Made by a program: the position numbers and the translations under genes. The notes below the pieces were generated by a model. That model was not told where the DNA came from. It made no database searches and saw nothing but the letters and a program-made list of their open reading frames with translations. Shown here piece by piece: positions 6,139 through 29,969 of a stretch of DNA of 29,969 nucleotides (positions within the stretch are counted from its first letter, which is position 1; each line of letters begins with the position of its first letter). The DNA is from a virus, in IMG/VR virus record IMGVR_UViG_3300009537_000116, positions 1 through 29,969 of that record. One strand, given 5' to 3'.

Positions 6139-8247
6139 ATGCCTAAACTATCTAATTTCCCGGACGGGTTTCCGGGCGGTGTTGAAATTCGCGGTATTCC
6201 CGTTCTCAACACGTATTGGGGCAACGTCTTCTGGGTCGATTCGGGCACGGGCTCGAACGGCAACAAGGGGACGTACAAGCGCCCATTCGCCGATCTGGAT
6301 TATGCCGTTGGCCGCTGTACCGCGAACAATGGCGACCTCATCATTCTTGCTCCCGGCCATACCGAAACCCTGATCGCGGACTCTGCTGTCGACATCGATG
6401 TTGCCGGCGTTTCGGTGCTCGGACTTGGCACTGGTGCTGATCGTCCGTCCTTCACATTCACCACGGATGTCGCGGCTGACTTCAAGCTTGCGGCGAACAA
6501 CGTCACGATCAAGAACCTGCTGTTCTTGGCGGGGATCGATGCACTGACCGGTCCGATCGAGGTTAGCGCCGACGATTGCGCGATCATCGGCTGCGAATAT
6601 CGAGACGACGATACCAACAATTACGAAACCACCGACGTTCTTGTGACGGCTTCCACGCCGCTCAGGATGCTCATTGACGGCTTCAGGTACGTCCACGACG
6701 GCGGTTCCGGGGGAACGCAGAACCAGTCCGTCATTCAGCTCAACGGGGCCGACAAGGCCGTCATTCGCAATTGCTGGCTGGTCGCCGATTCCGGCACGGG
6801 CGTCATTGAGGACGCTACCACGTCGGACCAAATCCTGATTGAGAACTGCATCGTCGAAAACACCGAAACCTCGCCGACCGTTACCATGCTGTTGCAGGCC
6901 ACGACAACCGGCACGGTGGTTCACTCGATGTTCCGCGTTGCGTCTGGCACGACCTACTTCACCGCAGCCAACGACATGCAGTTCTTCGAATCGTTTGGCA
7001 CCGGCACGGACGCAACCAGCGGCGAAAAGGTCGCCACTATTCTGTCCGGCGACATCGAAGCGAAGCTGGATGTGGTCGATGGCTATCATGACGTGCCAAC
7101 CGCCGATGTGACCACAAACTCTCAAATGCGCGATGTGGTCGGTAACAAGACCGACGCGGCTGCTGCTGGGGCCGTCAGCTCCACAGAATCACTGATGGCA
7201 TATCTCAAGCAACTCGTCACCGAACTGCAAATCGTGGACGAATTCCACGATGTGCCTGGGGCCGACAATGTTCTGAACGCGCAGATAAACGAGGTCATCG
7301 GCAACAAATCCGACGCCGCTGCGACCGGCGCTGTTACAGCTACCGATACATTGGTCGGCTACATCAAGCAACTGGTGACAGAGCTTGCCGTTATCGACGA
7401 GTTCCATGACGTTCCGGCTGCCGATGCGACAGCGAATTCGCAAATGAATGAGGTTGTCGGCAATAAGACGGATGCTGCGGCGACAGGTGCCGTCAGCACA
7501 ACCGAATCACTCATGGCATTCCTGAAACAGGTTGTCACGGAGATTCAATTACCAAGCGGTGATACCACTGCCAACACGCTAATGTCAGAGGTGATCGGTA
7601 ACAAATCTGATAGCGGCGCACAAGCCGATAGCTCTACTCGCAGTTTGATGTCGCGCATTAAGGGTGTGGCGGATGTATTGTGGGGCTCATCCGGTGTAGC
7701 CAGCTACCCAGCGGCTGCTGCCCCGGCTAACGGCGTTTCATTGGCAGAAGTGCTTCGAGCAATCTACGACCGCCAGCTAGGCGATGGCACGGATTCCAGT
7801 ACCAATAGCCAGTTGGGCAAAAAGGTGACCAGGGCCGCAGCCGACGTGTTCGATGGCGCAACCACAGCCCTGTTCACGGTCTCTACAGGGCGCGTTTTAA
7901 TGACTCATCTTGAGGGCGAAGTGACGGGGGCTGCAATCGATGCCGGCGCGTCGAATTTGAAGTTCGTTTCAAACCCAACGGTTGGGACAGATCGTGACCT
8001 TTGCGCGGTTCGCGATATTAACGCCGATGAATTGGGAACAATATTTACCATTACCGGGTCTGTTGCTGATGCCGTATCAGGAGGCAGTGGCGGCGGTGCG
8101 CAGGGCATGACAATTCGCGGTGTCGTGGTGCCGGAAGGTACTATCGATGTCAACACTACTGCCGATGTGGGCACGGGGGGTGCACAAGGCAAGTTTGAGC
8201 TTTGGTATATCCCGCTCGACGATGGCGCAACGGTCGCCTCTGCGTGA
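6139..8247 (+). CDS. Large structural protein: beta-helix domain plus 53-residue repeats
   Basis: 702 aa. Residues about 30-300 look like a right-handed beta-helix of the pectate-lyase type. Short hydrophobic strands alternate with Asn/Asp turns (NVTIKNLLFLAG, DCAIIGCEYRDD, QILIENCIVENT), and an early GSNGNKGTYKRPFADLDYAV motif is common to such phage proteins. Residues about 312-510 hold three clear repeats of exactly 53 residues (cores DVPTAD at 318, DVPGAD at 371, DVPAAD at 424, each followed by VGNKTDAA or IGNKSDAA and SLMAYLKQLVTEL-like segments), plus a degenerate fourth. A glycine-rich, beta-rich C-terminus follows. The likely role is a virion fibre or adhesin attached to the head or tail, perhaps acting on surface polysaccharide. 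No catalytic residues can be assigned. Confidence 0.6.
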   Translation: MPKLSNFPDGFPGGVEIRGIPVLNTYWGNVFWVDSGTGSNGNKGTYKRPFADLDYAVGRCTANNGDLIILAPGHTETLIADSAVDIDVAGVSVLGLGTGADRPSFTFTTDVAADFKLAANNVTIKNLLFLAGIDALTGPIEVSADDCAIIGCEYRDDDTNNYETTDVLVTASTPLRMLIDGFRYVHDGGSGGTQNQSVIQLNGADKAVIRNCWLVADSGTGVIEDATTSDQILIENCIVENTETSPTVTMLLQATTTGTVVHSMFRVASGTTYFTAANDMQFFESFGTGTDATSGEKVATILSGDIEAKLDVVDGYHDVPTADVTTNSQMRDVVGNKTDAAAAGAVSSTESLMAYLKQLVTELQIVDEFHDVPGADNVLNAQINEVIGNKSDAAATGAVTATDTLVGYIKQLVTELAVIDEFHDVPAADATANSQMNEVVGNKTDAAATGAVSTTESLMAFLKQVVTEIQLPSGDTTANTLMSEVIGNKSDSGAQADSSTRSLMSRIKGVADVLWGSSGVASYPAAAAPANGVSLAEVLRAIYDRQLGDGTDSSTNSQLGKKVTRAAADVFDGATTALFTVSTGRVLMTHLEGEVTGAAIDAGASNLKFVSNPTVGTDRDLCAVRDINADELGTIFTITGSVADAVSGGSGGGAQGMTIRGVVVPEGTIDVNTTADVGTGGAQGKFELWYIPLDDGATVASA

Positions 8248-27366: not shown

Positions 27367-27651
27367 CTATCCTGTCGGTCCTGCGATTGCGGCTTCCATT
27401 CCCTTAAGCTCTACGTTAAATGCCACGATGGACACACCCGGCGGCGTCAGATTGAGGGCATCGATTGCTCCCCCAACAGCGCTCGCCAACAAATCGGCAG
27501 TCCTGCCATGCAGCCCGGTGGTTAGAGGATGATGCCCCGCAATGCGCACCAGGGCCGCGCGCAACCGCTCGATCTCGTCGGCGGCTTCAAACCTGCCGCC
27601 ACTGTTCCAGTTGTTTACCGGGTCGCGCAACCGTTCAACGATGTCACTCAT
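27367..27651 (-). CDS. Array gene i: 94-aa protein of a common phage type
   Basis: Opens MSDIVERLRDPVNN then GGRFEAADEIERLRAALVRI, a pattern seen in many small early proteins of alphaproteobacterial phages. The middle has GRTADLLASAVGGAIDALN, followed by a short beta segment VSIVAFNVELKGM. Start context GGATAGGCCC (27652-27661), a perfect copy. Its last codons (ACA GGA TAG) form a new GGATAG site for what follows. Shares ATGAGTGACATC with gene a. Function unknown. Confidence 0.65.
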   Translation of the reverse strand: MSDIVERLRDPVNNWNSGGRFEAADEIERLRAALVRIAGHHPLTTGLHGRTADLLASAVGGAIDALNLTPPGVSIVAFNVELKGMEAAIAGPTG

Positions 27652-27655
27652 GGGC

Positions 27656-27934
27656 CTATCCTGTTGTGCCAATCTCAGCGGCAATACGATCAACATTATC
27701 TTGCGCTGCGGTGAGCGCCTTCTTCGCGTCCTCCAGGCGCTCTTGTGGATCGCGCACTTTCCAGTTCCCAGGCCCCCAAAGGAACGCTCCTTCTGCATTT
27801 TGGGCTTCAAGATAATCTGGCGAAAACCACAGCCCTTGATAACGGCACCATAGCCATTTGCCTTCGTTGCGCGCTTGTTCGATTAACGGCTTGAGAGCGT
27901 CTGCGATAATCTGCTGTTGTGCGTTGAGTGTCAT
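27656..27934 (-). CDS. Array gene h: 92-aa hypothetical protein
   Basis: MTLNAQQQIIADALKPLIEQ, then a Trp-rich centre (GKWLWCRYQGLWFSPDYLEA, GAFLWGPGNWKVRDP), then a helix QERLEDAKKALTAAQDNVDR. Start at 27934 with AGGATGGGCCACGCC (27935-27949), overlapping the stop of gene g (ATGA). It ends GGATAG, which serves as start sequence for gene i. Unknown family. Confidence 0.6.
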   Translation of the reverse strand: MTLNAQQQIIADALKPLIEQARNEGKWLWCRYQGLWFSPDYLEAQNAEGAFLWGPGNWKVRDPQERLEDAKKALTAAQDNVDRIAAEIGTTG

Positions 27935-28032
27935 GGCGTGGCCCATCCTGTTGATTTGCGCAACCACCATCGCCACAGTGGCCGGGCGTTGAAATATAGC
28001 CACCGTTGAAATTGCATTTTGCGCACGCTCAT
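27931..28032 (-). CDS. Array gene g: 33-aa Trp/Arg-rich peptide
   Basis: MSVRKMQFQRWLYFNARPLW then RWWLRKSTGWATP. Start context GGGAAACGCCGGGCA (28033-28047) fits the array pattern, and its stop overlaps the next start. Six Trp and six Arg in 33 residues, amphipathic and strongly cationic, possibly membrane-active. The gene call rests on start context and coupling. Confidence 0.45.
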   Translation of the reverse strand: MSVRKMQFQRWLYFNARPLWRWWLRKSTGWATP

Positions 28033-28085
28033 TGCCCGGCGTTTCCCGTATTGTGCTGGCGGCTTATGATTAACGACCTTCGCTC

Positions 28086-28298
28086 TTACCTTCTGGAACG
28101 GTCAAGCAGAAGTTCCAATTCGATCACTTCCCGTAGAAGAGTAAACGCTTCGTCTTGGTCTACTTCATTGTCCCTGACGGCCTGCGCAAACATCATTCCG
28201 AGCGCATACACCACATCGGCCGGTCGGCTTCCCGCACATGATGTGTTCATAGAAGCATAGAGATCGTTCGCTCTTTCCAGTGTTCCCGGACTGCTCAT
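28086..28298 (-). CDS. Array gene f: 70-aa hypothetical protein
   Basis: MSSPGTLERANDLYASMNTS, then RPADVVYALGMMFAQAVRDN and EVDQDEAFTLLREVIELELL. An all-helical soluble protein. Start context GGGATAGGCCAGGCCA (28299-28314), a variant of the array sequence with an insertion. It is separated from gene e by the only long gap in the array, which holds the tRNA-like element. Confidence 0.6.
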   Translation of the reverse strand: MSSPGTLERANDLYASMNTSCAGSRPADVVYALGMMFAQAVRDNEVDQDEAFTLLREVIELELLLDRSRR

Positions 28299-28590
28299 TG
28301 GCCTGGCCTATCCCTTCGCCTCGTCTGAGCGCAGCATTTGGGTGTTTTCGTCGGACGCCGAAACATCCGAGCCTTCTCAATCTAGTTCAGATATGGGGCC
28401 GGTGGGTGGTCCACAGGGACGGGCTTTGCATCCTCCCGCTGCGGGTTCGATTCCCGTCGGCTCCACACCCTACTCACCGTCAAACGGCCGTGAACCGTTT
28501 GGCAATTAACGGCGGTTGGCTACCGCTAACCCCGGCCTGTGGATGGCCCAACTAGGAAGGGGGTGACGTTAAGTGCGGAAAGACCGCGCG
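28299..28590 (+). other. Non-coding gap of the array with structured elements
   Basis: About 290 bases between array genes f and e. They contain the tRNA-like element (28395-28465) and, further on, three hairpins: CAAACGG/CCGTTTG (28481-28501), GGCGGT/ACCGCT with one G-T pair (28511-28527) and GCGG/CCGC (28575-28587). No credible gene on either strand; a 23-codon frame at 28295-28366 (minus) is possible but unsupported. Confidence 0.6.
28395..28465 (+). ncRNA. tRNA-like element (Ala-type acceptor, aberrant body)
   Basis: GGGGCCG (28395-28401) pairs with CGGCTCC (28458-28464) in a 7-bp acceptor stem with a G3:U70 wobble and discriminator A, the alanine identity set. A perfect canonical T-arm follows the usual geometry: GCGGG, loop TTCGATT, CCCGT (28441-28457). 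The D-arm is GTGG-GTGGT-CCAC with no linker to the acceptor, and the anticodon-side hairpin (GGGACGG with TCCTCCC) has a mismatch and no clean 7-base loop. The text TTTGCAT could give anticodon TGC, but the stem does not support it. The 3' end is ACACC, not CCA. It could be a decoding-deficient tRNA-Ala, a tmRNA-like domain or an attachment-site remnant. Confidence 0.6.
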
Positions 28591-28779
28591 TTAAAAACGT
28601 AGCACAGACCATCGGCTGCATGGCAACTTTCCATGCTTCTCTCCTTCAAAACCATCTTCCTTATTCGGTGGCTTGCTCATGGGCGTTTCCTGTTGTTCGC
28701 GGGGCAGTTTGAGTTCGTCGTGCCCAGGACGGCGCTGCTGTGCTTTTAGGCCGAACTGTTCCAGCGCTTTCCCGGCCAT
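28591..28779 (-). CDS. Array gene e: 62-aa protein with an internal array start
   Basis: MAGKALEQFGLKAQQRRPGH, then DELKLPREQQETP, then Met34-SKPPNKEDGFEGEKH. Start at 28779 after a full GGGATAGGCCC (28780-28790). A second array start sequence, GGAAACGCCC (28681-28690), lies inside the gene and is read in frame as Gln-Glu-Thr-Pro, followed by ATG at 28680. So either a 62-aa protein, a separate 29-aa product from 28680, or both. Basic and hydrophilic, function unknown. Confidence 0.5.
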   Translation of the reverse strand: MAGKALEQFGLKAQQRRPGHDELKLPREQQETPMSKPPNKEDGFEGEKHGKLPCSRWSVLRF

Positions 28780-28783
28780 GGGC

Positions 28784-28993
28784 CTATCCCGTTGAACCCC
28801 ATCTAACGTGCCGGTCTTCCGGGTCGAACACCTTCACGCAATCGAGGTAAACGCCCATCGTCTCTTCATCAATCAGTGTTTCCGACTGGGCTGATTGGTG
28901 ACAAGATGCCTCAATCGCTTCTTTTTCGTTCTTGGCATCAACCTCATAGAAGAGTTCATATGTGGCAAGTGTCTTGACGAGATACTGAGGCAT
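28784..28993 (-). CDS. Array gene d: 69-aa hypothetical protein
   Basis: MPQYLVKTLATYELFYEVDA, then KNEKEAIEASCHQSAQSETL, IDEETMGVYLDCVKVFDPED. Compact alpha/beta, like small domains of the strand-helix-strand type. Start chosen at 28993 because AGGAATCCCCCGTC (28994-29007) matches the array sequence; the frame is open further upstream but runs into gene c. It ends ACG GGA TAG, whose last bases are the start sequence of gene e. Confidence 0.62.
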   Translation of the reverse strand: MPQYLVKTLATYELFYEVDAKNEKEAIEASCHQSAQSETLIDEETMGVYLDCVKVFDPEDRHVRWGSTG

Positions 28994-29012
28994 GACGGGG
29001 GATTCCTGTTGT

Positions 29013-29171
29013 TCACTCGATAAGGTTGCCATCAGCGTCAATCCGCCAAACCAAGCCACAATAGCCGCACTTGTATTTCACAATATAATTCTTCGAGACA
29101 GAGGCGGCCTTCGTTGGTGTCTCACATTCGGCGCAGGGCAGCACGTCGTAGTCTTTTGGGCTTGTGCTCAT
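29013..29171 (-). CDS. Array gene c: 52-aa zinc-ribbon protein
   Basis: MSTSPKDYDVLPCAECETPT, then KAASVSKNYIVKYKCGYCGL, then VWRIDADGNLIE. Two CxxC knuckles (C13/C16 and C35/C38) about 18 residues apart and flanked by beta strands make a zinc ribbon. Start context CAGGAAACGCCCG (29172-29184). It may bind nucleic acid or protein. The TGA stop lies just before the start sequence of gene d. Confidence 0.65.
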   Translation of the reverse strand: MSTSPKDYDVLPCAECETPTKAASVSKNYIVKYKCGYCGLVWRIDADGNLIE

Positions 29172-29185
29172 CGGGCGTTTCCTGA

Positions 29186-29380
29186 CTATTCCTTTGGTTT
29201 ATCGACTTCGCCGAGAGCTTCAAGGGCGATTAGCCTGCAATTGCCCTCGCCGGTTGATTGCGCGCAGGAGACGTTTTCGTCGTATGCGATACGACGCAAT
29301 GCCTCACGCAAAAGATCGGCTTCTGCCTCAGCGCGGTCTGCCCGCGCTATCTCCCAGTCAATCGTGCCAGGTTCGCTCAT
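29186..29380 (-). CDS. Array gene b: 64-aa helical protein
   Basis: MSEPGTIDWEIARADRAEAE, then ADLLREALRRIAYDENVSCA and GNCRLIALEALGEVDKPKE. A charged helix followed by a short Cys-containing turn and helix. Start context GGATAGGCCC (29381-29390), exact array copy, which also holds the stop codon of gene a. It ends in TAG, followed at once by the start sequence of gene c. Confidence 0.65.
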   Translation of the reverse strand: MSEPGTIDWEIARADRAEAEADLLREALRRIAYDENVSCAQSTGEGNCRLIALEALGEVDKPKE

Positions 29381-29389
29381 GGGCCTATC

Positions 29390-29599
29390 CTAACTATTTC
29401 TGGTTTCCTCGTCGCCGATCCCAAATGTGTCGAGGCCAATCTGTCTTTGGGCCGCTTTAAGTCTTCGATCAGTGGCGCGGAGTTGGGCGCGCAGCCGCAT
29501 GATCTCGTCTAGTGCCTCAAGGATTGCATCCTGCAATTCCGGGTGCAGGTCTGGGGAGTCGGTCGATAAACGCTGCAGGGTCTCGGCGATGTCACTCAT
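29390..29599 (-). CDS. Array gene a: 69-aa helical protein (paralogue of j)
   Basis: MSDIAETLQRLSTDSPDLHP, then ELQDAILEALDEIMRLRAQL, then RATDRRLKAAQRQIGLDTFG. First gene of the leftward array, 43 bases or so from the promoter's expected start point. Start context GAGAAACGCCC (29600-29610). The N-terminal 30 residues are nearly identical to gene j, while the C-termini differ completely, as if a conserved head were joined to different tails. Confidence 0.68.
   Translation of the reverse strand: MSDIAETLQRLSTDSPDLHPELQDAILEALDEIMRLRAQLRATDRRLKAAQRQIGLDTFGIGDEETRNS
29513..29569 (-). repeat. 57-bp direct repeat, copy 1 (in array gene a)
   Basis: Identical to 27170-27226, same orientation. The copies bracket about 2.3 kb holding most of the array. 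Confidence 0.9.
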
Positions 29600-29649
29600 G
29601 GGCGTTTCTCGCTGTTCGCGCGACGACGATTTGGCCGCCTCATTTCCCC

Positions 29650-29729: not shown

Positions 29730-29969
29730 ATGAAAATCGCCTACGTCAACGGCAGGGCTGGCCATACGGCGCGCGAACAGCTCGCGGCCATTGAACCGGT
29801 TGAGAACGTGGAAAAGACATATATCGAGGGGCCGCACGAATCATTCGCTGATGTGCTCGCCGCGCTGCGATCCGAGACGAAGGATGTTCTTGTGATCGAC
29901 GGGCTTATAGTTCTGGGGCACACCCGCCGCGGCCGGGAGGTTGCACTCCGACAATTGGCCGAGAGGGGC
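29730..29969 (+). CDS. Resolvase-fold-like protein, 3' end outside the window
   Basis: 80 codons, open to the window edge. MKIAYVNGRAGHTAREQLAA, then VEKTYIEGPHESFADVLAAL, then DVLVIDGLIVLGHTRRGREV and ALRQLAERG. The order resembles the N-terminal domain of serine recombinases (I.YVR.S...Q...L...K.F.E......R..L..AL..LR..D.LVV..L.RLGR...). The catalytic Ser position after the first strand is Asn-Gly-Arg here, and the GR that follows the LG element is changed to GHTRRG. It may therefore be a non-catalytic or regulatory relative. The ribosome site is weak (AATGAAG). Confidence 0.45.
   Translation, partial: MKIAYVNGRAGHTAREQLAAIEPVENVEKTYIEGPHESFADVLAALRSETKDVLVIDGLIVLGHTRRGREVALRQLAERG

Follow-up and report, generated by a model that had tools for sequence, protein, structure and literature searches.

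What is a sequence that carries the acceptor half of an alanine tRNA, and neither a D-arm nor an anticodon arm of canonical form, doing in a viral genome? The question is raised by a 71-nt element at positions 28395-28465 of a 29,969-base caudovirus fragment (IMG/VR record IMGVR_UViG_3300009537_000116), the whole of which was analyzed and is referred to here as the window. A sequence-only reading had placed a tRNA-like element with alanine acceptor identity at these positions and described a compressed D-arm, a broken anticodon stem, the lack of CCA and an orientation antisense to a minus-strand array of micro-genes. These observations, coordinates included, proved sound. The element reads GGGGCCG-GTGGGTGGTCCACAGGGACGGGCTTTGCATCCTCCCGCT-GCGGG-TTCGATT-CCCGT-CGGCTCC-A on the plus strand. 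Its setting and parts are as follows:

28371..28590, about 220 nt: gap without a minus-strand gene, which holds the element (ORF table and sequence reading)
28395..28401, plus strand: 5' strand of the acceptor stem, GGGGCCG, pairing 7/7 with 28458-28464, third pair G3·U70
28402..28414, plus strand: D-region with a possible zero-spacer hairpin, GTGG-GTGGT-CCAC (from the sequence; the hairpin appears in the sub-threshold mascRNA alignment)
28416..28437, plus strand: anticodon region, either a hairpin GGGA-C-GG[GCTTTGCAT]CC-TCCC (from the sequence; present in one folding centroid) or a broken canonical stem, 28420-28424/28432-28436
28427..28429, plus strand: TGC where the canonical anticodon would lie, separated from the acceptor strand by 25 nt, just like that of the L005 tRNA-Ala
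28441..28457, plus strand: T-arm GCGGG-TTCGATT-CCCGT, 5/5 pairs, one of them G·U
28458..28465, plus strand: 3' strand of the acceptor stem, CGGCTCC, and discriminator A73 (28465); CCA is not encoded and CAC comes next

With all pairs of both stems formed, the element has the 7-bp acceptor stem and 5-bp T-arm with a TTCRANY loop that feature in Rfam RF00005, and this minihelix bears the identity set of tRNA-Ala, the AlaRS pair G3·U70 and A73. The canonical D and anticodon arms are absent, with UGC in register. Only one of four D-stem pairs can form, and the sole possible pairing in the D-region joins GTGG to CCAC around a 5-nt loop with no spacer after the acceptor. The anticodon stem in its canonical register reads C•C, G-C, G·U, G-C, C•C (3/5 pairs). 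Mismatches at both ends of this stem, together with the missing D-stem, make ordinary decoding unlikely. A P2-type helix (GGGA-C-GG/CC-TCCC) can form instead of the anticodon arm; the folding energy of the whole element is no better than that of shuffles (z -0.88), and the structure of the middle is thus not proven. The same acceptor and T-arm geometry arose in 4 of 3,000 first-order Markov copies of the window (0.0013 per window), and in none of them once A73 was required, with or without G3·U70. Since no simulated window contained an A73-bearing minihelix, a chance origin was rejected, and the element is real as a tRNA-like sequence. On the other strand the G·U pairs at 3:70 and 49:65 would read as A•C mismatches, which supports plus as the RNA strand.

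Neither ARAGORN at default settings nor Rfam at gathering thresholds made a call in the window. With ARAGORN relaxed to 90%, the element was reported as a poor tRNA-Cys(gca) alongside several spurious matches. Its score with the tRNA model RF00005 was 12.6 bits, below the cut-off of 29, and with the D and anticodon stems unformed and no ARAGORN call a canonical tRNA identity was ruled out. Under lax settings the tmRNA model RF00023 gave 19.7 bits (cut-off 47) and the mascRNA-menRNA model RF01684 gave 27.6 bits (cut-off 42.5), the best sub-threshold match by bits. Taking 28441-28566 as a permuted tmRNA (16.3 bits, E 0.23) was rejected, since the local acceptor gives better pairing.

The mascRNA-menRNA match bears on one alternative, namely that the element is a tRNA-like processing signal, an RNase P/RNase Z target that punctuates plus-strand read-through transcripts as mascRNA does for MALAT1 and whose acylation is irrelevant. 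A minihelix alone is a known minimal substrate of RNase P, and the position of the element past a late plus-strand operon and opposite a minus-strand array would suit such a role. Like the element, mascRNA and menRNA combine an intact acceptor stem and T-arm with a reduced D-arm and a poor anticodon arm. However, they are vertebrate RNAs, the match is sub-threshold and there is no evidence of common descent, so that the likeness is convergent at best. As a processing signal would also leave the retention of G3·U70 and A73 unexplained, we regard this reading as improbable.

Ancestry was approached through an exact 26-mer of the element, GCGGGTTCGATTCCCGTCGGCTCCAC, which among approximately 85,000 species genomes searched occurs in just two distant ones: in a tRNA-Ala(UGC) of a Planctomycetota genome (L005:86-160(-)) and in a Gracilibacteria tRNA that ARAGORN typed as Leu. 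Compared with the former, the acceptor (14/14) and T-arm (17/17) are identical, as are A73 and the position of UGC, whereas the D and anticodon stems are unformed, CCA is not encoded and all changes fall within a 39-nt middle that does not align; the choice of L005 through the exact search exaggerates how far the two halves differ, and the base-pairing of the window itself is independent of L005. The middle is also no clear match to 82 tRNA-Ala middles (z 1.3). In both sequences TGC stands exactly 25 nt after the 5' acceptor strand. T-N-GCA in the exact anticodon register arose in 0.29% of shuffles of the middle (p ~0.003) and in 1.5% when a shift of ±2 nt was allowed. The in-register UGC makes tRNA-Ala(UGC) descent the better bet, and on these sequence comparisons it appears to be the likeliest origin.

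Such a descent may have ended in simple decay, with a once normal phage tRNA-Ala(UGC) damaged in its centre by mutation or recombination and now functionless. We consider this the main rival and a serious possibility, if short of an even chance. The register of UGC and the nearly canonical length of 71 nt agree with it, as do the many tRNA-Ala genes of phages, aberrant ones included, and a middle without proven structure. Uniform decay, on the other hand, would not spare 12/12 minihelix pairs beside an unrecognizable middle; a single recombination swapping the middle would remove this objection.

Exact identity of the 3' end alone to a host tRNA had been named in the sequence-only reading as the mark of an attachment-site remnant, in which the 3' half of a host tRNA would have been the attP of a temperate ancestor. 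Similar 3'-end tRNA matches do adjoin integrase genes in phages Nibb, Jace and Lalka8. Those sites hold the 3' half only, whereas here the 5' acceptor strand is present too and perfectly paired, and the 26-mer is found in only the two genomes named above. No integrase was detected among the window proteins searched, in a record that ends at 29969, 1.5 kb to the right of the element, and beyond which an integrase may still lie. The intact 5' strand and the lack of an integrase among those proteins disfavor a simple attachment-site remnant, which we hold to be very unlikely.

The genomic setting is that of a late operon followed by an early array. Plus-strand genes for portal, GroES-like, head, tail, endolysin and exonuclease proteins are followed by a minus-strand array of tiny genes that has a strong promoter-like site at 29678-29650. 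Minus-strand genes stop at 28591, the first one beyond the gap is a 23-codon ORF with its start near 28370, and the element lies in between, 1.6 kb beyond the last plus-strand gene. No promoter or terminator was found beside it, and no sigma-70-like promoter directly upstream. Within the array (27640-29610, minus strand), near-identical leaders, CAACAGGATAGGCCCATG or AACAGGAAACGCCCATG, precede the starts of the tiny genes and are apparently a repeated ribosome-binding and start cassette. Downstream of the element, a closed three-hairpin fold was predicted at 28466-28592(+), with z -2.3 in one test and -1.4 in another; as a structured domain it was rejected, its z lying within regional scatter. 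Similarly, positions 28410-28417 are complementary over 8 bp to a stretch further downstream, which a rough estimate did not place beyond chance.

A loose resemblance to the tRNA-like domain of tmRNA had also been proposed from the sequence. The idea was worth testing, as the tmRNA model scored the element above the tRNA model, both below cut-off, and the comparison set that it called for turned out to be large. Viral contigs searched with a pattern for an alanine-type acceptor and a TTCGATT T-arm yielded 82 elements, 32 of them without an ARAGORN call. In about 79 nt, many of these combine UUCGAC, the D-loop hallmark of tmRNA, with one long hairpin and a GGAC that precedes the T-arm. A second pattern, in which TTCGAC was required, returned at least 120 stretches; at least 116 extracted elements with complete acceptor and T-arm pairing represent at least 81 distinct sequences of 74-92 nt. 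Among the matches listed, all 116 fully paired elements have G3·U70 and A73, an ARAGORN call overlaps 2 of them and CCA is encoded in 27. UUCGAC belonged to the pattern by which the comparison set was gathered and GGAC did not. For the phage CDS-less members listed at the gathering threshold, RF00023 gave 48-80 bits with the whole model aligned and the message deleted. In an alignment of 68 domains, structure pairs were present in 88% of cells; shuffles gave 65%, and sliding the partner no more than 55%. This count leans towards the tested structure, since the alignment was fitted to it; covariation was 0.59 against 0.11, P2 and acceptor pairs included. Message-deleted matches, pairing and covariation together identify these elements as tmRNA tRNA-like domains without a tag reading frame. 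PMC4131195 and PMC11915505 describe CDS-less tmRNA solely from phage DS6A and from a pair of plastid sequences (about 65 bp); according to these papers, expression of the DS6A-like molecule in E. coli inhibits tmRNA. Examples from viral contigs (L140-L251, and L039) and an isolate are:

L177:5624-5700, plus strand: CDS-less tmRNA domain
L141:7634-7712, minus strand: CDS-less tmRNA domain
L193:392-470, minus strand: CDS-less tmRNA domain
L039:6028-6102, minus strand: CDS-less tmRNA domain
Streptomyces phage Shaeky, 42932-43010 (L259:2601-2679, plus strand): unannotated CDS-less domain inside a tRNA array

In a sub-group of these message-less domains, UUCGAC is replaced by AUGGAUAGC, AUGGACAGC or AUGGCUUGAGC and the P2 hairpin and G/AGACA linker remain:

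L025:160-238, plus strand: UUCGAC-replaced domain
L063:1095-1174, plus strand: UUCGAC-replaced domain
L031, L078, L079, L080, L092 and L093: further UUCGAC-replaced domains

Could the element be a divergent member of this DS6A-type set, titrating SmpB? Like the domains, it has an alanine-type acceptor and T-arm, is short and message-less and has a non-canonical centre, and R1, a covariance model built from 25 message-less domains, scores it at 36.9 bits (E 4.8e-7). This score is not diagnostic: true members reach 44-85 bits and canonical tRNA-Ala genes of the same acceptor type 28-40, and the overlap with the latter indicates that the element's score reflects the shared minihelix. In it, GGTCCAC stands in place of the D-loop UUCGAC and GCT in place of the GGAC that precedes the T-arm; it appears to lack their covarying P2 helix and, at 71 nt, it is shorter than their 74-92 nt. 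Its middle, compared with 76 domain middles, gives z 0.73, whereas members without exact UUCGAC reach 4.6-6.0. Its RF00023 score is far below the cut-off that most true members tested exceed. By the tests run, the element is not one of the CDS-less tmRNA domains; membership would be the least probable of the readings considered here, and a specific tmRNA kinship is unsupported, which leaves the earlier interpretation only partly right.

No full-length relative was found in 50,697 phage records or in viral contigs searched with three patterns, and plasmids held only 26-nt matches to its 3' end. A targeted scan of viral contigs for TCCAC variants returned no paired relative. An array gene from its neighborhood has no protein relatives; the exonuclease and one head protein of the window have relatives only at 31-54%, and no convincing R1-type element was found in the genomes of neighboring-protein relatives that were searched. 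In an exonuclease relative (L003), a noncoding gap of about 400 nt (7190-7598) contains a weak tRNA-like fold at 7308-7384, which was rejected as poor, with no Rfam match, no RF00005 match and a dissimilar middle.

Other aberrant elements were encountered. L007, L041 and a tandem trio in L089 are fellow outliers to the domain set, and their middles bear no clear similarity to the window element's own. For example, L007:7917-8013(-), a 97-nt element of a 126-kb phage, has the acceptor and T-arm of the window element around a longer, unrelated middle; the tmRNA model gives it 32.9 bits, below cut-off, and ARAGORN calls it tRNA-Pro(agg). The tandem tRNA-like elements of the trio at L089:5058-5303(-) all escape ARAGORN, and two or more of them have a perfect anticodon-type stem closing a loop of about 9 nt rather than 7 (e.g. 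GGGGG-ATCCTTGAC-CCCCC). Aberrant phage tRNA-Ala in L036, L037, L045, L072, L074, L091 and L100 resemble the window element in their alanine acceptor, UGC loop and escape from ARAGORN; those examined (L036 and L037) align to tRNA-Ala at z 4.6-5.8, unlike the window element. The tRNA-Ala(UGC)-like elements of L037, L045, L072, L074, L091 and L100 have in common an unusual D-arm similar to CATGTNCCAAGGNGGCGA.

Taken together, we favor an alanine-type minihelix RNA that does not decode and may be a decoy or a processing signal, and give this reading a probability of roughly 0.4. A tRNA-Ala(UGC) gene would have kept its acceptor-T-arm minihelix while its D and anticodon arms were replaced or lost, and selection on the acceptor half, as the sequence-only reading had it, is plausible. 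The element would be transcribed from the plus strand, through a promoter of its own or by read-through from the late operon. RNase P would cut the transcript at 28395 and RNase Z after 28465, and a host enzyme would add CCA. The RNA may then occupy enzymes that need only a minihelix, such as AlaRS, EF-Tu and maturation enzymes. Most likely it would act on host translation or on ribosome rescue, as a decoy or competitor, in the mode proposed for the message-less tmRNA of DS6A and without membership of that family. Consistent with this, its RF00005 score is as low as those of phage tRNA-like domains that do not decode (from undetected up to 26.7 bits, where canonical tRNAs of the same phages mostly score 45-71), it sits in a gene-free slot, and phages repeatedly carry alanine-type tRNA-like RNAs that lack a canonical body, that of DS6A reportedly inhibiting host tmRNA. 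The lack of a homologue, the unremarkable folding energy, the lack of an adjacent promoter or terminator and the antisense position count against it. A bolder version appears unlikely on present comparisons: an alanine-accepting phage minihelix RNA whose decoding half was swapped for an unrelated body, competing for AlaRS, EF-Tu or ribosome rescue, or baiting defense enzymes that target acceptor stems, and so reaching by an independent route the same end as CDS-less tmRNA.

If functional, the element would represent a virus that keeps only the aminoacylation and elongation-factor half of a tRNA. The widespread class of message-less tmRNA domains in phages is better supported than the finding on the window element itself, and with strong covariation and no fewer than 81 distinct versions among viral contigs it makes phage interference with ribosome rescue a testable general question.
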